A DNA stretch of 24,616 nt from a virus. Positions 5,703 to 22,900 of the stretch are shown one piece after another (the first letter of the stretch is position 1; the number at the start of each line of letters is the position of its first letter). The DNA lies in the IMG/VR virus record IMGVR_UViG_3300006919_006398, positions 1 through 24,616 of that record; one strand, given 5' to 3'. The position numbers and the translations under genes are program-made. The notes beneath the pieces are model-generated. The model did not search any database. It was not told the DNA's origin and was given only the letters and a program-made list of their open reading frames with translations.

Positions 5703-6641
5703 CTATCTCCTAGAGTCTAGAATTTCATTAACCATTTTTTCAAACCAATCATCGTCAATCTCAACATGCCTTCTAACATCAAGACTATCAATGAACTTCA
5801 CGCCGTCCCCCTGAAGGACAACATTGTGAACCGCGAGGTCTCCATGAATCATATCACCTTTCATGAAGTCAGGTTTCTCATTCTCGCACAATTCTACAAT
5901 TCTTTCAGCATACGGAAGAACCCCACCCATCTCCATCCAAGTTTTCAAATTAATACCACGCCTCCATTGATGAAGAGCACCACCCTTCACATACTCTTTA
6001 TGATAATAATCTGAACGAATACTCAAAGCCGTGTCACGCAACGGAGTTCCAATATACGACTTAGCAAGAGTTTTCTTCTTATGCTGAGAAACAAACAAAG
6101 TACGCTCAGAACCATCCAAATGAGACTTAGGCTTACCCAACACTTTTGCGTTCTTAGGAACGTAAGTATCTTTAACAATATTTTGCCCACACGCTGGGCA
6201 TTCCAAAGCAACCTCAGAAATCAAAACATCACCCAAAGACATGAACGCATGAAGAATCTCATCAAAAGTACCACCCTCAACATGATGCATAACAGACAAA
6301 GCAAGAACAAGATCAAAATGCTCAACCTCAGCAAGAGCCTGCACATCCTGCAAAGTAAACTTCTTATCTAAAAGAACGACACGATCTTGCTTATTCTCAT
6401 CCAAAACCTCCATCAACCAATCAGTATAGATACTCTCAACAGCAACAACAGTACAATCATACTCTTCAACAAGACGCAAAGAATAATAACCAAGATTCGC
6501 ACCAAAATCCAGCACAGTAAACGGTCTCTTCCACCGATCAAACTCAGGTTTCATCATTTCCCACCTAGATTCACAATCACGAATACCAGGCTTTTTAACT
6601 TGACCATTAACCCAAATATCTTGATATTGCTCTAAAGTCAT
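5703..6641 (-). CDS. Methyltransferase fused to a kinase-like C-lobe
   Basis: 312 residues. The N-terminal half is a class I SAM-dependent methyltransferase: motif I is FTVLDFGANLGYYSL (41-55), an acidic residue ends strand 2 (VVAVES, E69) and motif IV-like FDLVLALSVMHHVEGG lies at 109-124. From about 200 the chain changes character. IHGDLAVHNVVLQGDGVKF followed by IDSLD (265-288) has the H-G-D-x5-N and the I-D-x-x-D elements of a protein-kinase-like or aminoglycoside/LPS-kinase catalytic loop, with an earlier hinge-like segment GINLKTWMEMGG. No glycine-rich loop is visible, so the kinase lobe may be minimal or inactive. The order resembles WbdD, a methyltransferase-kinase that caps O-antigen chains. 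It starts by ATGA overlap with the polymerase gene and precedes the recombinase gene. Confidence 0.72.
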   Translation of the reverse strand: MTLEQYQDIWVNGQVKKPGIRDCESRWEMMKPEFDRWKRPFTVLDFGANLGYYSLRLVEEYDCTVVAVESIYTDWLMEVLDENKQDRVVLLDKKFTLQDVQALAEVEHFDLVLALSVMHHVEGGTFDEILHAFMSLGDVLISEVALECPACGQNIVKDTYVPKNAKVLGKPKSHLDGSERTLFVSQHKKKTLAKSYIGTPLRDTALSIRSDYYHKEYVKGGALHQWRRGINLKTWMEMGGVLPYAERIVELCENEKPDFMKGDMIHGDLAVHNVVLQGDGVKFIDSLDVRRHVEIDDDWFEKMVNEILDSRR

Positions 6642-9600
6642 GGCTTCACCAAATTCTTTCTCTGAATATAGTTATCAATAGTAATCAACGAATTATCGTT
6701 CTCCAAAGTAAACGAGTCCAACCTAGTCGCAGCATCCAAATCTTTAACATCTTTCAACTTAGCAGCAAACCAGCCAGTACCACCAAGAACATGCCTCATC
6801 TTGTTATACAACATTGGGAAAACAACAACCTTAATAATTTTCTTGCCATCCCAAGCATAAAAGTTAGCCATATCTTTACCCTTAGCAGTAGTAAAAGTAC
6901 GAGTGCTAAACACATACAACAAACTACGCTCATCATCAGAATCACCAAGCCCAGTATCATACAACCAAGCATACTCATGATCCATACCCTGCTTACGCAA
7001 CTGAGTCAAATCATACAACTCAGAACCCACATACTCATAAGCATCACAAAACATGTGAAGCGTCCTATCACCAATCAAGAAATACATAAAATCACGATTA
7101 GCAATCTCAGCATTCCTATCACAAAACACCGACACAGAAGACGACTGATCCTCAATCTCAACACGCAAATACTTAGGAGTCTTCTTCGTAGAACGAACAA
7201 CACCCTTAATCATACGCAACTCAGAATAAATCTCATGGAACCCCTCAATCGGCTCCACAAGTTCATCCATCTCATTATTACTATCAGAAAGACCAGCAGC
7301 AAACCCCAAAATAGGAAGATAATAACGCTCATGATCATAACCACCATCATGACCAATAGTAGAGAAAGCCCCCACCTTCTCCAAACTCTCCCTCAACGGA
7401 GCCTTCACATGACGCTTAGAACACTTATTAACAAACTCATCATAAGACCCAAACGGACGATGCTTAAAAATCTCACCAATCGCACTATTACCACAACCAG
7501 AAACATTCCTCAACCCAAACCGAATACCAGCATCATCAATAGTGAAATACTCCCCAGACAAATTAACGTCAGGAGGAAGAACCTGAATACCAATACGCTT
7601 AGCCTCCATCAAGTAAGCAGTAATCTTACCCTTCTCAGACTCATTATACAGCATAGACCACACAAACTCTTTAGGATAATGAATCTTTAACCACATCGTC
7701 TGATACGACAACATCGAATAAGCAACAGCATGCGACTTATTAAACATATACAAAGACGCTAACTCAAACTCCGACCAAATCTTCTCAGACTGACGACGAG
7801 TCAAATAAGGATTACTACAAAACTTCTCCTTATACTCATCAAACCCAGCAGCATCACGCTTCTTACCAATAATCTTACGAAGCTTATCAGCCTCAGACCA
7901 AGAAAAATCAGCAAGCAACACAGCCATCTGCATCAACTGCTCCTGAAAAATAACCGTACCATACGTATCCTCCAAAATAGGCTTCACAACCTCATGAGGA
8001 TACTTAGGCTCAGCATCACCCTTCTTACAATCAATATAAGCCTGACCCTGAGACAACAACGCACCCGGACGCACTAACGCATTAGAAACAACCAAATCAT
8101 TAAAATCATCAATACCCATACGATCAATAAGGTTTCTGTAAGCAGCTGCATCAGCCTGAAACACACCCACAGTGTTGCCCTCATTAAAATTCTGAAACAC
8201 AGCAGGATCATCCAACCCAAGCGACGCATCAGTAACATCAACACCGTACAACTCCCGAACTTTATCAATACAATCTTTGATAACAGAAACAGTCTTCAAA
8301 CCAAGAATATCAACCTTAATCAAACCAACAGCCTCAGCATCCTCCATATCAAAAGACGTAACAGCAGCACGACCCTCAACAGACGTACCCTTACGAGTCT
8401 CAACAGGACACACCTCAGTCAAAGGAACAGACGACACAACCATACCAGCAGCATGAATACCAGTATTACGAATACGCCCCTCCAACTTCTTAGCAACAGG
8501 CAACACATCAGGATAATTACGAATAAACGTCTTACCCTTATCAGTAGCCTGCAACTCTTCCAAAGTCTCAAAAAACGGAGTCACACTATTAGTCTCATCA
8601 AAAGGAACCTGAAACACACGCGCAACATCCTTAATCACAGACTTAGGCTTAAACACACCATACGTCGCAATCGCAGCAACATTATCCTCCCCCCAACGCT
8701 CAGCCAAATAATCCTTCACACGCTCACGCTGCTTATCCTCAAAATCCAAATCAATATCAGGATAATCATTACGATCAGGATTCAAAAACCTCGCAAACAA
8801 CAAATCATACTTAATCGGATCAACCTTAGAAATATCTAACAAAAACGCAATAAGCGACCCACCAACAGAACCACGACCAGTACCACGACCAACACCATTA
8901 CGATCACACCACTTAACCAAATCCCAAACCATCAAAAAATAGTCAGAAAAACCAAGCTTCGCAATAACCGCAAGTTCCTCATCCAAACGATCACGATACA
9001 CAACATCATCCAAACCAAAATCAGACAACGCCGTCACACACAACTCACGCAAATAATCATCAGAATCCAAAGCCTTCATATACTTAGGCAACAAATTCTT
9101 ACGCTTCTCCAAACGAGCAGCACACTTATCCGCAACCTCAACAGTATTCTCCAAAAACTCAGGACAATCAAAACCCCTATCCCTAAACCACGACAACACC
9201 TCATCAGCAGGAGCAACATAAGGATTAATCTGATCAAACCTCAAAAACCGATCAGGATACATACGATTCAACTTCTCAGTAACATCACCACCACCAGCAA
9301 GATTCTCCTTAGCATGACGCAACTGACCAGCATTCAAAGAAGGATACTGCGACACCATCAACAAAACCTCCTCATCATGCTTATCATGAGCAGAAGGAAA
9401 ATGACAATCAGCAGTAGCAACAACCTTAGAACCAAAAGACTGAGCAAGATCAATCAAACCATCATTCAACGACTTAGGATTCCACGCCTGAACCTCAAAA
9501 TAAAAATCATCACCAAAAATCTTGATAAACCGCTCAGACAACCTCTCAGCCTCAGCATGATCACCACGCTCCAAAGCCTTAGAAATCGCACCACCCATAC

Positions 9601-13659: not shown

Positions 13660-13961
13660 GAATTTTCCATTCTCTTGCGTGTTTCGGCTACGATATCTTG
13701 AAAGCGAGACTTAGCCTCGTTTTCATACTTGACCTTTTCAACCATATCCCTAGATTCAACGGCAAAGTCAAAAACCAAGAACGGCCCCGGCCTGTTGTCT
13801 ATGTACCACATCACCGCCTTCTGCAACAGTTCTCCGTCGTAATGAGCAGCAAGACTATCAGCAACCTGATCTTGCCGTGGGGAATCTGGAATAAAAAGTT
13901 TATGCGATTTCTCGGAATAACTTTTGAATAAGTCGATCAGGCTTTCGCCAGTTACTTTCAT
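13656..13961 (-). CDS. Unknown protein upstream of helicase (possible loader)
   Basis: 101 residues from ATG 13961, preceded by AGGTGA at a good spacing; GTG 13970 is an alternative. It is mostly helical (LIDLFKSYSEKSHKL, QVADSLAAHYDGELLQKAVM), has a central WYIDNRPGPFLVFDFAVES segment and a charged helical C-terminus (EAKSRFQDIVAETRKRM). No nucleotide-binding motif is present, so it is not a DnaC-type AAA loader. Helicase loaders or adaptors without ATPase activity commonly sit immediately before the phage helicase gene, and this one overlaps the helicase start by TTGA. That is positional inference only. It overlaps the whiB-like gene upstream by more than 60 bases. Confidence 0.6.
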   Translation of the reverse strand: MKVTGESLIDLFKSYSEKSHKLFIPDSPRQDQVADSLAAHYDGELLQKAVMWYIDNRPGPFLVFDFAVESRDMVEKVKYENEAKSRFQDIVAETRKRMENS

Positions 13962-14196
13962 CTTCGTCACCTGCTTCTTCCCAAGTACGTATCAAATATT
14001 CTATCTCAGAGAACCCACCGTTAACACCGATAAAGCCATCTCTTTCATAAACCGCTGAGTACAAGCACTCAATGCGGACAGAACACATCATACACACATT
14101 CTTAGCATAATTGATATCATCAATATTAGATGACAACCAAAAATGAGGATTATCGTCTTTTTTACAAAGAGCGCTCTTTAACCAGTCAGCCTTCAC
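13900..14196 (-). CDS. WhiB-family Fe-S regulator
   Basis: 98 residues. Four cysteines are spaced as in WhiB proteins: C11, then C35 and C38 (NVCMMCSV), then C44 (RIECLYSA), which together hold a 4Fe-4S cluster. The following turn is DGFIGVNGGFSE, where most family members have G-V/I-W-G-G; the Trp is Asn here. WhiB proteins bind the primary sigma factor and alter promoter choice, and they occur only in Actinobacteria and their phages. The basic C-terminal half (WRKPDRLIQKLFREIA) may contact DNA. The start is GTG 14196, overlapping the upstream stop, with a weak ribosome site. It could switch host or phage transcription; it is also the clearest host marker in the window. Confidence 0.85.
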   Translation of the reverse strand: MKADWLKSALCKKDDNPHFWLSSNIDDINYAKNVCMMCSVRIECLYSAVYERDGFIGVNGGFSEIEYLIRTWEEAGDEDESNWRKPDRLIQKLFREIA

Positions 14197-14389
14197 TCTC
14201 GCTGTCTAACTCCCGAAGCTTAGCCTCAATCTGTTCGTCAACAGCCTTCCACAGATCAGCCCAAGCCTGCTCGTCATCCTCTGACGAAGCCTTTACTCTT
14301 GCGCCCGCATCAAGGCGCAGTGATTCGTAATTACCAAGATTCTTAGTAATACCGATAGATGCCCAAATCTCAACATTAGACTCTTGCAT
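14186..14389 (-). CDS. Small acidic protein of unknown function
   Basis: 67 residues from ATG 14389 with AAGGAG 8 bases upstream. It opens with a beta-type segment (VEIWASIGITKNLGNYESL, then RLDAGARV) and ends in an acidic helix (WADLWKAVDEQIEAKLREL followed by DSESEG). I have seen similar short proteins with the G-V/I-T-x-N-L-G-N-Y/F-E pattern in actinobacteriophage genomes, where they have no assigned role; this is memory, not a search result. It lies between the MerR-like gene and whiB, overlapping both. Confidence 0.7.
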   Translation of the reverse strand: MQESNVEIWASIGITKNLGNYESLRLDAGARVKASSEDDEQAWADLWKAVDEQIEAKLRELDSESEG

Positions 14390-14840
14390 TGTTAAAACTC
14401 CTTGCAGTCATTTTTACTTTTTGATTTAACGAGTTAATCCTAGAATTAACTTTATCCGAAGCAGAACCCTCTTTCGTTGGTCTACCCGGAGTTCTTTCCG
14501 AAAAGAAATTAAGAATCTCATGCACATCTGAATACATGTAGAACCTCCAATTCTTATACGAAGAATACTCATCACCGAAAGAAGTAGGCTTAGGAATCAA
14601 ACCGCTTCTTTCATATTTCCTGATCGTATCAGGTCGCCTCTCAACAATCTTAGCGACTTCCCCGATAGTATACACACGACTAAGCAAAACATCCGCACCT
14701 GCCATCGGAATCGTCAACTCAGAAGAATCAATCATATTCTGAAGCACGACCGTTGATTTTGTCTTTTGAATCTTCTTAACCTTGTGCAGAACACCTGCAT
14801 ACATGTAAACCTTGTTAGTTATAATCTTGTCGCTTAACAT
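14376..14840 (-). CDS. MerR-like winged helix-turn-helix protein
   Basis: 154 residues. Residues 56-113 match a MerR-type DNA-binding domain: VYTIGEVAKIVERRPDTIRK is helix 1-turn-helix 2, followed by YERSGLIPKPTS and a wing leading to FYMYSDVHEILNFF. The N-terminal 55 residues look like a small beta domain (KVYMYAGVLHKVKKIQ, TVVLQNMIDSSELTIPMAG), unlike standard MerR proteins where the HTH comes first. The C-terminal tail is basic (KVNSRINSLNQKVKMTARS). It probably regulates phage promoters or binds DNA as an excisionase-like factor; no ligand domain is visible. ATG 14840 has no clear ribosome site; AAGG lies 15 bases upstream. Confidence 0.75.
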   Translation of the reverse strand: MLSDKIITNKVYMYAGVLHKVKKIQKTKSTVVLQNMIDSSELTIPMAGADVLLSRVYTIGEVAKIVERRPDTIRKYERSGLIPKPTSFGDEYSSYKNWRFYMYSDVHEILNFFSERTPGRPTKEGSASDKVNSRINSLNQKVKMTARSFNNARV

Positions 14841-16530: not shown

Positions 16531-16953
16531 CTAAGAGAATTTTTCTCTCGGCGCTCTCAAAGAGTTATGCTTCTTCTTCAAATGAGGCTTATTCTTCTTC
16601 GCGACCTCACGCATCTTATTACGATGAGCCTCCGAAGGGCGCTTACCTTCACGGTGAATAGCACTATGCTCTGGAACAGTACACAAGAACAAGTTCTCAA
16701 CCCGATTATCTAGTTTAACCTCATTAATATGATGAACAGTTTCCCAAGGCTCTAACTGCCTACCTAAATAATCTTCCATTACAGCACGATGTTCATAAAT
16801 ATAACCACGAATGTTCTTAGGATGCTCAGGTCTTAAAATCTTCACATAACCCTTGTCATCAATATACTTCCCACCTTGAAAAGTAGGAGCATCTTTACCG
16901 CTCAAAATACCAGCTTTCCACTCAACATCTTTACGCTGAGAAGCCAGACCCAT
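16531..16953 (-). CDS. HNH endonuclease
   Basis: 140 residues. The nuclease core is YIYEHRAVMEDYLGRQLEPW then ETVHHINEVKLDNRVENLFL, with H74-H75, N77, N83 and N87 followed by H96 and H100 in PEHSAIHRE. This is the H-N-H beta-beta-alpha metal site common in free-standing phage homing endonucleases. The C-terminus is very basic (KKNKPHLKKKHNSLRAPREK). It starts 4 bases after the tail-gene stop, with GGAGGA 12 bases upstream inside that gene. Position between a tail gene and a metallophosphoesterase, with no intron visible, suggests a mobile gene inserted at a gene boundary. Confidence 0.87.
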   Translation of the reverse strand: MGLASQRKDVEWKAGILSGKDAPTFQGGKYIDDKGYVKILRPEHPKNIRGYIYEHRAVMEDYLGRQLEPWETVHHINEVKLDNRVENLFLCTVPEHSAIHREGKRPSEAHRNKMREVAKKNKPHLKKKHNSLRAPREKFS

Positions 16954-17644: not shown

Positions 17645-17890
17645 CTATTCAGAAGCCGACTTCTTATCAACCTTCTGAAAAGCAGCATTGATCTCTTCCT
17701 CATCCAAAACACCGTCATCCATATAAGAATGAGCGAGAGCTTCAACAACAGTAGCCATACCACCAATACCAGCCATCATAGCGGCTTTCCAGAGTTCAAC
17801 ACCAGCAAGAGCACCAGCACCAATAACACTCAAAGCAGAAGCAGCAAAAACAGCAATTATTCTAGTAATAATTGACTTAAACTTACCCAT
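17645..17890 (-). CDS. Small two-helix membrane protein, holin-like
   Basis: 81 residues from ATG 17890. A longer frame from 17953 would overlap the tail-fibre gene and run across its promoter, so it is rejected. Basic MGKFKSIITR leads into two hydrophobic stretches, about 10-30 (IIAVFAASALSVIGAGALAG) and 34-53 (WKAAMMAGIGGMATVVEALA). The tail is acidic, YMDDGVLDEEEINAAFQKVD, resembling a degenerate EF-hand loop. Topology and size fit a class II holin or a related phage membrane protein; no lysin is adjacent. No ribosome site is seen. A strong promoter ends 6 bases before the ATG, so translation is probably leaderless. Confidence 0.65.
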   Translation of the reverse strand: MGKFKSIITRIIAVFAASALSVIGAGALAGVELWKAAMMAGIGGMATVVEALAHSYMDDGVLDEEEINAAFQKVDKKSASE

Positions 17891-17896
17891 ATAATT

Positions 17897-17925
17897 ATTA
17901 TATATGATAAAAGTTAATGTATCAA
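17897..17925 (-). promoter_or_regulatory. Consensus promoter giving a leaderless mRNA
   Basis: On the minus strand TTGATA (17920-17925) and TATAAT (17897-17902) are separated by exactly 17 bases. Six bases (AATTAT) separate the -10 box from ATG 17890, so transcription should begin at or within a base of the start codon. It lies in the only gap after the tail-fibre stop, and part of the -35 overlaps that stop. This is the best sigma-70-type promoter I found in the window. Confidence 0.7.
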
Positions 17926-19991
17926 TTACTTCTGGTTGAAGTAGGTAACTCAACTAACAAGTTTCCATCAGAATCAGTTGTTGTACCGTTTAACACGACG
18001 CTATCGTTTCTTGTAGCAATAACCATCCAAGAAACGATAGCGTTAGAGCTGCTATTTTTACATGTTATTGTTAAAATATTTCCGTTAACAGACCCTTTAA
18101 CTGCATCCCAATCGGACTCGTTGGTAGTATAACATTGTACATCTTTAACAAGTGCAACAAATGTACCCTCTGTCATTCTTGAATCCGTGTCGATATTGAC
18201 CGTTGCAGACCCATTAACCAGCTGAACAGTGCCCCTGTATAAAAGATCAATCTTTGGACCTTCAATACAAGCATGTACCAAGTCCATGCCTTCAACAATT
18301 GGATGATAGATTCTAAAGCTTTTACTTGACCCAAATGCTTGGAAATTTTCACATGTCAAATCAGCATTACTATTTATCCCTACATAACTAGAAGTGGGGT
18401 CTGCCCCGCCACCACGGATCTTTACAAGTCCACCAGAGCCACCACCGGCAACAATATGCATATTTCCATCAGGGGTGTAGATACCTGATTCGCTGTATAA
18501 TTCACCAATTCTTACTTTAAAGTAGTTAGGATTTACAAAGCTGCTTATAGTAGAATAAGCCTGTTGTACACTCAAATCTCCAAAACCAGAAATTATTTTA
18601 ACAGAACTTATACTTGTACCAGAATCTATTTCAATACCACCAACCGGTGTTATTCCAAGGTCTATTGATCCACCCAGCTCAGAAAGAACTTTGAATTTAG
18701 CAGTAGATCTTATAACACCTTTGTAACTTTGATTTAAAGGTTCAAAACGAATTTCTGCTGCATCACCACCACCATTATCCAAAGTCATCTGCGAACCTGA
18801 AAGAGTAATATTATTACTTCCTGAAGTTGAGAAAGTTGAACCTGTCACAGAAGCGCCTGAAAGTGTCCCGCCAGTTATTGTTCCACTAGCAGTTATGTTT
18901 CCTGAAAAAGTACCTGCGGTTGCATTTATGGTTCCGGTAATCGTTGCACTAGTTGCAGTAATGGCACCACCTGAAGAAACTCTAAACGGTGCAGTAGAAT
19001 AAGCAGAACTTCCTGCCCAATGAGCGCCATTAGAAGCAACATGAAAAGATGTTGTATCAGAACCACCAATATCAAGAGTGCCTCCCGTAATTGCAACAGA
19101 ACTCGCTCTTAAAGCACCACCAGAAGAAACTCTAAATGGAGCAGTGGAATAGGCAGAACTGCCCGCCCAATGAGCGCCATTAGAGGCGACATGGAAAGAC
19201 GTTGAGTCAGATCCTCCTATATCAAGAGTGCCGCCTGTGATGGCAACAGAACTTGCTGTCAGAGAACCGGTAGAAGAAACTCTAAATGGTGCTGACGCAA
19301 ACGCAGCATTTCCTGACCACATGTTACCGGAAGCATCTACATGGAAAGATGTTGTATCAGCACCGCCAATGTCAATAGTGCCACCAGAAATATTTGCTCC
19401 GCTTAAATCTCCAGTAAAAGTACCGGAAGCGGCACTAATATCACCAGCGAAGGAAGCGTTACCACTAGAGTCAATAGCAAACTGTTCAGATATGATGCTA
19501 CCATCACTTAAATTAAAAAAAGTTCCAGCAGTAGAGTAGACACCAGATGTATAACTATAATTAAGTGATTTTATAGAATCAGTAGCAAGTTCATTTGTAG
19601 TGATTGCCGAAGCAGCAATATTATTAGCAGTAATTGTGTTAGCAGCAATTAACTCAGAATCAATAGATCCAGAAACAATATTTGTAGCATTAATAACATT
19701 TTCACCAAGGACAACACCAGCAGGTTCTAAAACAGAGTTATTAACAATATTGACAACGAATTTTTTAAATTGCTCAATGTGCCTATCTTGCCTTTCTGCT
19801 CTTGGAGTAGTGCTATAAACAGTATTGACAGGAAAATCCCAAACACTGTACTTGGTGGCATCTATTAGGCTTGAATTGGAACCGTCATGTGTATGACCGC
19901 CAGAACTCTGAAAGACAACAGCATTTTCAGAAATTGCTCCAGTAGAAGACGTAACAGAACTTCTTTTATAACCCGATCTATATCTAGGCAT
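17922..19991 (-). CDS. Tail fibre protein with 50-residue repeats
   Basis: 689 residues from ATG 19991 (GGAAGGTGG at spacing 4; TTG 19994 is an in-frame alternative). Residue numbers here count from the TTG. After a short N-terminus, 95-142 contains tandem short elements (INATNIVSGSIDSELIAANT) typical of fibre shafts. Three 50-residue repeats follow at 203-352, each with GG-T-x-DIGG, TSFHV and APFRVSS. A Gly/Ser/Thr-rich stretch leads to a C-terminal domain (about 558-690) containing FRIYHPIVEGMDLVHACIEG, LLYRGTVQLVNGSATV and a terminal SWMVIATRND segment, a module widespread in phage fibres. It should form a trimeric host-binding fibre. A perfect 16-bp inverted repeat lies near its 3' end. 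Confidence 0.8.
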   Translation of the reverse strand: MPRYRSGYKRSSVTSSTGAISENAVVFQSSGGHTHDGSNSSLIDATKYSVWDFPVNTVYSTTPRAERQDRHIEQFKKFVVNIVNNSVLEPAGVVLGENVINATNIVSGSIDSELIAANTITANNIAASAITTNELATDSIKSLNYSYTSGVYSTAGTFFNLSDGSIISEQFAIDSSGNASFAGDISAASGTFTGDLSGANISGGTIDIGGADTTSFHVDASGNMWSGNAAFASAPFRVSSTGSLTASSVAITGGTLDIGGSDSTSFHVASNGAHWAGSSAYSTAPFRVSSGGALRASSVAITGGTLDIGGSDTTSFHVASNGAHWAGSSAYSTAPFRVSSGGAITATSATITGTINATAGTFSGNITASGTITGGTLSGASVTGSTFSTSGSNNITLSGSQMTLDNGGGDAAEIRFEPLNQSYKGVIRSTAKFKVLSELGGSIDLGITPVGGIEIDSGTSISSVKIISGFGDLSVQQAYSTISSFVNPNYFKVRIGELYSESGIYTPDGNMHIVAGGGSGGLVKIRGGGADPTSSYVGINSNADLTCENFQAFGSSKSFRIYHPIVEGMDLVHACIEGPKIDLLYRGTVQLVNGSATVNIDTDSRMTEGTFVALVKDVQCYTTNESDWDAVKGSVNGNILTITCKNSSSNAIVSWMVIATRNDSVVLNGTTTDSDGNLLVELPTSTRSN
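17998..18043 (-). repeat. Perfect 16-bp inverted repeat inside the fibre gene
   Basis: Arms ACGCTATCGTTTCTTG and CAAGAAACGATAGCGT (minus-strand reading) flank a 14-base loop. They pair without a mismatch. The repeat falls within codons for the NAIVSWMVIATRNDSV segment, about 75 bases before the stop. No T-run follows, so it is not a normal terminator. Confidence 0.85.
18939..19388 (-). repeat. Three tandem 150-bp coding repeats
   Basis: Three in-frame units of exactly 150 bases: 19239-19388, 19089-19238 and 18939-19088. Each encodes one 50-residue fibre module. Units two and three are almost identical in protein. Hand alignment of 126 bases (18963-19088 against 19113-19238) gave about 19 base differences but one Ser/Thr change. 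Unit one is more divergent. Confidence 0.85.
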
Positions 19992-22900
19992 CAAACCACC
20001 TTCCTTAACATCAAAGACTGGGACGGGCTATCACTATAAGAAACCCTCTTAGAAGTAACCCAATACTCACCATTAATTATATCAAAAGCATCAAGACTTG
20101 TAATCCTAATCCTGTCACCTGTCATAACTTTAGGAGTCAACAGAGTATTCAAATTTAAAACAGGAACAGGATCGCTCATTTTTGAAATAATAAAATTAGC
20201 AATCTTTTGTCCGTGATCAAAATCAGTAATAAAAGGATTCTCAATAACAACTTCTTTCAAACCATAAAGACGTATATTCTCACTCAAGTTTGCAGACTGC
20301 TCCTTGATTTGACTCTTCTGCTCAGTAAGCAAAACAGGAGTGCCAGAAACAGCAGTAAAAGCAACTTTCTCCGTAACAGGATCTGTACCTTCAGCAAACA
20401 CAAAAGTTCCTTTATCAACATTAGCATTAGCAGAAATCACAAGCTCTGCCCCATAAGCCTCAGGATTCCACTTAAGAATATCAATCTCAGGAGGATACTC
20501 AAATCTAATCCCAGTAATAAAAGGATCTTTAACCTCAAAAGCAGGAGCTTTATCATACTTAAGATCCCAATACCTAGCTTCACGAACAGCAGTGTTAGCC
20601 GAATGAGAAACAGCATCAGTACCAAACTGACCCCTTTCTAAACCACCAAAAGTATTATCAGATTTAGAACTATACTTAATAATTTCACTATCAATAACTA
20701 AATACCCTGCCTTAAAGAAAGGTGGATCAGTAGTTGAAGAAACAGTCATGACATTGGCACTAGCAGAAAGATTAGACTCAAGATTAACAACAGCCAGAGT
20801 CGTCGGAGAATCAGCCCTCCACAAAGATTGAACACCAACCAAATTGCTTGAAAGACCCGCAATCTTTACAACAACCTTATTAGCCTGCAACTGAACATTA
20901 TAACTAGCATCAATAATATTAGTATCATCATCAATAGTAACCTGAGTGTTAGCGTGCTGATCAATTGAAGGCTCAAAGAAAGCATAAAAATGCTCATAAC
21001 GTGCTTTATTTTCTTCATCAATATAAAAACGACCAAGATCCGCCAAAGTCACTTGCTCAATAATATCTTTAATAGAAGACTCATTGCCATACAGGAAAGG
21101 ATAAGTCGTAAGAGGCTGCATAACCGCTTCCGTATACCTATTCCCAACTTCAGAAGCAGTTAAAGTCTTCTTGTAAATCAAAAACTGATCGCAGAAAAAA
21201 TCTTTTAAAGATACCGGCGAGACCTCACCAGTCCCGATAAGGTAGTAAGCATTCCTGCCACCGAAGGCGATATCGCAATTGTTCCATGAAGCAATAGACC
21301 CCACAACAGACAAAGTGTCTTCCAAAACTCCATTTATGTAGTACTTAAGATCAGATCCATCAAAAGTCACAACGATGTGACTCCAAGCACTAGCCTCAAG
21401 AGGGCCAGAAGATTCAACATACTCAGTTCCACTAGAAGTAACCACCTTAAACCCGTTTGCAGTTGAGCTATTGTAAAACTCAAACCCCGCAGTAGGAGTC
21501 GAAGAGTGATTAAAAGAACTTAAATACGCATAGTCGCTAGAAAAGCCACTACTATTAGGTTTAATATAAAGTTCAAAACTCCACTGGCCAGTATAGTTTT
21601 CACTAGTAGAGTTGTTTAAATCCCAAGATAAATCATAAGGAAGCCTCATATACTTTTCACTAGTAAATCTAACCGATTTGTTTTCAGGGTCAGATGTCAA
21701 ACCACCAGAAGAATTAACGTTAGCCTCACCAATATAAATACCATCATTAGTAGTCTTATTACGATCAGTCGAACCAGCAGTATAAGGTGCATCTTTAGAA
21801 CCAATACGATCCAATGCAGCCATTGTGTAGCAATTCTCAGCAGGAACTGACGACAAAGGATCGGACCCAATAGCATACTGCAAATACATGCTAAACTCAT
21901 CGTTCCCATTTGTAGAAACAGTATGATAAGCCTCAATTCTTAACTTATAAGGTTTTCCAGCAACAAGATTTACAATCTCCGATTCAAGATCAGAGTACAC
22001 ACCAATCCCCACAGGATGAGCCACATACTCATCAAGAATTAAAGTATCTTCAAGATAGAGGCGCACACCGCCATGAGCAATTCCAACTGCAAGAATTTGA
22101 TCGCCAGAGTCTGGTGGAACATAGTATCCATCAAAGACCATGTTGTAGTAATCAGAAATAGTTTCACCATTGACATCAGTAAAGCTAAAGTCAACAATGT
22201 CTAACGCCAGTCCAGCCGTATACGCATTATCAGCAGAGTTAAAGGTGTAGTCAGGCAAAGTAAAAGCAATGTCCCCCATAGCCTTCTCTAGATCACTAAG
22301 CTGCCTATCTAGAGCATCAGCAATAATATCTTTTACCTTATTGTAACGACCAGCGGGCAAAGCAAAAAATCTACCTCGCAAACCATTTTTAACCGGAATA
22401 GTTGTACCATCACGATCAGCAACCGACTCAGAAAAATTTAAATGAAGAATAGCTTCTTTTTGTTTAGCCGAACGATCAAAAGTATTCAACGATTTGATGT
22501 CAGCCTTAGGGAAATTAACATTCATCATCAACGACTGAACAGCGTCAGCAGTCGTAACGCCTTCCATAAAGAAACCGTTAGTAATAACTTTCTCAGAAGC
22601 AAACTTATTAAAATCAGTAGAAGAAGCGCTAACAGCCATACTGCCAGTATCACTTGACCACTCATCTACATAGCTTTTGACAGCCGTAGGATATTCGTAA
22701 GTCTCAAAAACAACTTTTGTACCAGCAGCATGGCTTCTTGCAATAGAATTATTATATCCTCGCTCGGCAGCAGTAAGGGTATACGTATCATCCTTAGATG
22801 AAATTAAGACATACTCTCTAGTGTAATTATCAGGATCGATAATCATCACATACTCATCACCAGAACCGCCATCAGGAAATTCGATTGTATTGTCAACAGA

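Follow-up and report, generated by a model that had tools for sequence, protein, structure and literature searches.

RESULTS

Genes and features around the tail fiber gene. The window analyzed here is a virus record of 24,616 bases, and all of its genes that were recognized by family lie on the minus strand. Its family-search matches include Pol III alpha-, DnaB-, RecA-, and WhiB-like proteins; the WhiB-family protein is encoded at positions 13900 to 14196 and presumably points to an actinobacterial host. The tail fiber gene (17922 to 19994, minus strand) is an open reading frame (ORF) of 690 amino acids and contains a 150-bp tandem repeat of 2.2 copies at 18964 to 19289. It is followed by a gene of 81 amino acids (17645 to 17890, minus strand; ATG at 17890), whose PHROG matches carry one nuclease label (3.2e-24) and one holin label (2e-5). 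An HNH endonuclease gene at 16531 to 16953, close to the fiber gene, could encode a homing enzyme; in many relatives, too, the HNH endonuclease gene adjoins a gene of 220 amino acids and an exonuclease gene.

A promoter for the gene after the fiber had been proposed in an earlier note on this DNA. A promoter-like site is indeed present upstream of the 81-amino-acid gene (17897 to 17925, minus strand; consensus match TTGATA-17-TATAAT), but the number of such matches in the region is not above the chance expectation (4 observed between 16500 and 19000 versus 5.8 expected in shuffled sequences). The stretch that holds the match is similar in five of nine aligned syntenic relatives (L092, L096, L097, L111, and L139), which keep it regardless of the type of fiber end that they carry; L102, L103, L105, and L106 have a different version of it.

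The C-terminal module of the fiber has been swapped. The C-terminal part of the fiber (about 17925 to 18338, minus strand) is an exchangeable module of a kind also present in cyanophage structural proteins and in many uncultivated phages. Its structure was predicted with a pLDDT of 90.7, and the best Foldseek match was 7eea, the tailspike of Cyanophage Pam1 (E value of 2.9e-4; TMq of 0.41 over 75 columns). When phage records were searched by tblastn with the fiber, each of the 10 matches covered only its C-terminal 18%. The syntenic loci L091 to L093 have their gene order in common with the window from a tail gene of 1298 amino acids to the exonuclease gene, and residues 1 to 254 of the fiber are 73% identical to theirs. 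However, the L092 fiber ends in a Peptidase_S74 chaperone domain, whereas the window, L111, and L139 have the Pam1-tailspike-like module. Just past the fiber stop codon, at about 17918, the DNA becomes similar to L092 again, and similarity to the module relative L011 ends at about 17950. The different C termini of syntenic fibers, together with these breakpoints, identify the module as a swapped cassette; the domain exchange that had been suggested for this end of the fiber is borne out by a syntenic relative with another C terminus in the same gene.

A perfect inverted repeat lies within the coding sequence of the module. At 17998 to 18043 (minus strand), 48 to 80 nucleotides (nt) from the module edge, the fiber gene contains an inverted repeat of 16 bp with a 14-nt spacer. 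As had been reported from the sequence, the two arms are complementary at 16 of 16 positions. Arm 1, upstream in the transcript (18028 to 18043), lies in the codons for Asn-Ala-Ile-Val-Ser-Trp; the spacer (18014 to 18027) encodes M-V-I-A, a family-like reading in the direct orientation; and arm 2, downstream in the transcript (17998 to 18013), lies in the codons for Thr-Arg-Asn-Asp-Ser-Val. In the predicted fold, residues 101 to 110 form a strand that leads from arm 1 across the spacer to arm 2. The fiber frame is open through the repeat, and the protein is family-like on both sides. A frameshift at the hairpin was rejected, as stop codons lie near it in both other frames of the transcript strand. 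The fiber stop codon starts 73 nt past the hairpin.

The repeat is real and unusual. With loops of 3 to 60 nt, it is the only perfect stem longer than 10 bp in the window, and just one further stem reaches 10 bp; the other inverted repeats of the window include longer, imperfect ones (17 nt, 82%). When the window was shuffled 3000 times with dinucleotides preserved, the counts of stems of at least 12, 13, 14, 15, and 16 bp came to 199, 50, 13, 4, and 1, respectively. A 16-bp stem is thus expected at about 3e-4 per window, a figure that applies to a single window, while this repeat was picked from a scan of many. With the protein and the codon usage of the window held fixed, the probability that codon choice would give perfect pairing is about 4e-6, which points to a cause at the DNA level or to luck in a large scan. 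A partly redundant survey of 146 loci (922,318 bases, after exclusion of 7 own-window or duplicate loci) gave 16, 12, 1, and 1 perfect stems of 11, 12, 14, and 15 bp, respectively, and none of 13 bp or of 16 bp or more, the longest being 15 bp.

Shorter perfect stems were noted elsewhere. GC-rich ones occur in the relatives L114 (15 bp; 8431 to 8511) and L132 (14 bp; 5864 to 5900). In 9 of 48 scanned loci (L113, L114, L115, L117 to L120, L136, and L138), a perfect inverted repeat of 12 bp is found downstream of the exonuclease gene, with a spacer that is always 40 nt long. In L113 (2724 to 2787) this repeat reads as a MerR-like motif, and one pair that is A-T in the others is G-C there, both of its sides having changed. 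The MerR-like gene of the window (14376 to 14840, minus strand) lacks perfect stems of at least 10 bp.

Pairing is absent in the relatives of the module. Profile scans of IMG/VR gave 491 and at least 561 module relatives, and the best 80 of each were used. Combined with the single-query hit L001, 7 loci from phage records, and 3 syntenic loci, they formed an alignment of 103 relative rows, 79 of them distinct over the site and none dropped for gaps, which represents the nearer relatives of the module rather than the whole family. Perfect pairing is absent in all 79, which form 1 to 9 of the 16 pairs (mean, 4.65). When arms were swapped between sequences, the mean was 4.63 (standard deviation, 0.07), and 926 of 2000 permutations reached 4.65. 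The aligned sequences therefore give no sign of a conserved structure, and the suggestion that the repeat forms a conserved RNA structure did not hold up, since real arms pair no better than swapped ones. The hairpin is also missing from the syntenic L111 and L139, which have the module at the corresponding position with 52% identity. The more distant syntenic loci L102, L105, and L106 were kept out of the alignment and show no perfect stem that reaches 12 bp.

The earlier note had looked to relatives with the same protein but broken pairing as evidence against a role for the site. Pairing is broken, but the nearest relative found is only about 65% identical: the closest listed for the module, L011, shares 64 to 65% of its protein sequence, in scans that may omit records very near the window, and a closer relative of the module may lie outside their coverage. 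The exact arm-loop-arm pattern had no match in IMG/VR, and neither did a shorter-stem pattern at the same codons; the residue pattern A-T-R-N-D had two matches, which were set aside as their translations look unrelated. Scans of bacterial genomes found no relative of the module, and phage records held no near DNA match to the window. Partial pairing of a possible seed does occur among the relatives: arm 1 often contains TCT-TGG and arm 2 AGA, and L081 has GTTTCT and AGAAAC.

The two arms depart unequally from the family. When scored with the family profile, arm 1 does not stand out (10 of the 79 distinct aligned relatives score as low or lower), whereas none of the 79 scores as low as arm 2. 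In a sliding scan of 372 16-nt segments over the module, arm 2 ranked 4th (z score of -6.7) and arm 1 ranked 160th, and the strongest z outliers, 17999 to 18014 and 18000 to 18015 (both -7.4), overlap arm 2. All 103 relative rows align across the site without gaps, indicating a substitution tract and not an insertion; a palindromic insert was rejected on this ground. Inversion of the spacer was also rejected, the spacer being family-like in the direct orientation; the inverted form would be open as well.

Arm 2 falls in a motif that is nearly constant. All 68 distinct relatives compared keep its Arg and Asp, and the window has Thr at a position that is Glu in 66 of them, Asp in one, and Gln in one. 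The first base of this Glu-to-Thr change falls outside arm 2, and the same position reads Ile in the distant syntenic L102 and L105, so that Glu is not fixed in the wider family. The surroundings of arm 2 are atypical as well. Only 2 of the 79 distinct aligned relatives score as low as the spacer or lower, and only 1 scores as low as the downstream flank or lower. By raw score the segment 17986 to 18001 falls below the arm 2 segments, and the atypical stretch extends 12 nt past arm 2 (17986 to 17997), which leaves a part that a 16-nt copy does not explain. Compared with L011, the differences amount to 5 of 16 positions in arm 2 and 4 of 16 in arm 1; the arms are thus clearly unequal when the family is the reference, but not when the nearest relative is. 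The case made from this inequality is weakened by the atypical spacer and flank and by the Ile in L102 and L105.

DISCUSSION

We put the probability that the 16-bp repeat is a mutational scar of template switching, that is, of quasipalindrome correction, at roughly 55%. It is probably an ordinary scar of a one-off copying slip in replication rather than a working switch or signal. Among the three ideas that had been offered for this site, the scar fared best: pairing is absent in all 79 distinct aligned relatives and a single arm is the outlier, but the spacer and flank are atypical, too, and both arms differ from L011 to a similar degree.

The event that we infer, like its direction and its time, would have taken place during replication of the phage or of a donor of the fiber module. 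The growing strand would have folded back on itself at a short, imperfectly matched inverted repeat, for which the TCT-TGG of arm 1 and the AGA of arm 2, as often found in relatives, could have served as the seed. The folded-back strand would then have copied arm 1, the probable donor, before returning to its own template. Arm 2, the probable recipient, would thereby have been rewritten as the reverse complement of arm 1, bringing several neighboring amino acid changes while leaving length and frame as they were. Such copying accounts for the perfection of the repeat, its location in a constrained motif, its absence in relatives, the unchanged length, and the open frame, and it leaves the hairpin in need of no function. 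That codon choice also tracks pairing when the protein is given is in line with it, and we count in its favor that the window encodes replication and recombination proteins (Pol III alpha-, DnaB-, and RecA-like). The class of event is already known: homogenization of arms by template switching is reported from phage T4, E. coli, and yeast in the available parts of two papers (PMC7202029, PMC8604942). The former describes the process in E. coli and names yeast CYC1 and phage T4 rIIB as the systems in which it was first observed. The latter deals with yeast coding genes, with homogenized arms of 7 to 16 bp and spacers of up to 70; in the text available, its single 16-bp case comes without a statistical evaluation. 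A further paper, also consulted in part, describes patterns consistent with the making of RNA stems by template switching (PMC8794818).

The main rival is chance, in the form of ordinary substitutions in a fast-diverging fiber module from which a large scan then picked a striking outcome. We consider this possible but doubtful. One stem of this length in 3000 shuffles means that a few are expected if thousands of windows are scanned, and the divergence of the spacer and the downstream flank fits a module that changes quickly. Chance sits less well with the low probability of perfect pairing once the protein is given, with the position of the outlier arm in a motif nearly constant across 68 distinct relatives, and with the lack of any 16-bp stem in the 922 kb of surveyed loci.

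It is also unlikely, and to us more so than chance, that the hairpin was selected in this lineage for transcript stability, for ribosome pausing near the fiber end, or as a binding site before the next gene. The predicted hairpin is highly stable for its length on either strand (-32 and -30.8 kcal/mol in a 121-nt stretch; z scores of -4.47 and -4.45), and the next start codon lies 108 nt past its end. Yet it is absent from all 79 distinct aligned relatives, among them the module-bearing syntenic loci L111 and L139, and five of nine syntenic relatives that have no hairpin share a similar stretch upstream of the next gene. The window has no Rfam match, and translating ribosomes, which open hairpins in coding sequence, would open this stem. 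On the coding strand the stem is not followed by a U-run. An intrinsic terminator is not supported on this basis, the stem being followed directly by CGTGTTAAACGG; on the plus strand, 5 consecutive T's start 11 nt past the stem. The terminator scan did not list this hairpin, and its loop limit of 8 would in any case rule out a loop of 14 nt. A recently formed DNA cruciform or RNA hairpin at the margin of the exchangeable module that promotes further exchange of the receptor-binding fiber end, or that tunes translation of the fiber tip, in this lineage only, would be a long shot.

There is an even slimmer chance that the repeat arose by assembly or amplification in an environmental contig. Only the window sequence bears it, but frame and protein are intact and family-like on either side, and a simple foldback chimera would be expected to continue along the opposite strand and not to return.

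Least probable of all is a target at which a recombinase or a diversity-generating retroelement varies the fiber end: the C terminus is a swapped module and hairpins mark the target genes of retroelements (PMC3240598), but a match to a reverse transcriptase, resolvase, or tyrosine recombinase was found in 0 of 9 virus records, which are possibly fragments, the window holds no further copy of an arm at up to 3 mismatches, and a 16-bp stem with 7 of 16 GC pairs and a 14-nt loop is unlike the GC-rich stems of 7 to 10 bp with 4-nt GRNA loops that are described for phage retroelements in the part of that paper available to us. The invertase-type target proposed in the earlier note accordingly found no backing. 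An invertible DNA switch is not supported either, as no pair of sites flanks a segment of the window and the arms enclose nothing but the 14-nt spacer.

If the template-switch reading is true, the window offers a natural case, in an uncultivated phage, in which one replication slip altered several neighboring residues of a fiber tip. Tracts made in this way can imitate positive selection. For long perfect stems in metagenomic coding sequence, the test against relatives is needed before a function is proposed. None of the titles listed by literature searches is about a phage fiber, and such a case may nevertheless be in print.

Comparison with known systems. In the published descriptions that were available to us in part, the likeness of the repeat to known systems varies. 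The target hairpin of the phage BPP-1 retroelement lies near the 3' end of its target gene, as the hairpin of the window does, but its stem, loop, and partner gene do not fit (PMC3240598). The palindromes in mitochondrial coding sequences of Nematomorpha have both arms in protein-coding sequence, as seen here; they are, however, numerous, up to 284 bp long, and found in four species, whereas the repeat of the window is single and short (PMC6649704). Arm homogenization in yeast shares with the window a perfect repeat in coding sequence, a spacer below 70, changes in neighboring amino acids, and, in one case, a length of 16 bp; the yeast cases rest on a strain tree with ancestral states and ours on relatives that are at most 65% identical (PMC8604942). 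In quasipalindrome mutation, as described for T4 rIIB and for thyA and lacZ reporters in E. coli, an imperfect repeat is made perfect by the copying of one arm (PMC7202029). Those systems provide the states before and after the event, whereas the window provides the state after it, and its 16 of 16 pairs, compared with 1 to 9 of 16 in the 79 distinct aligned relatives, fit a repeat that has been perfected in this way.
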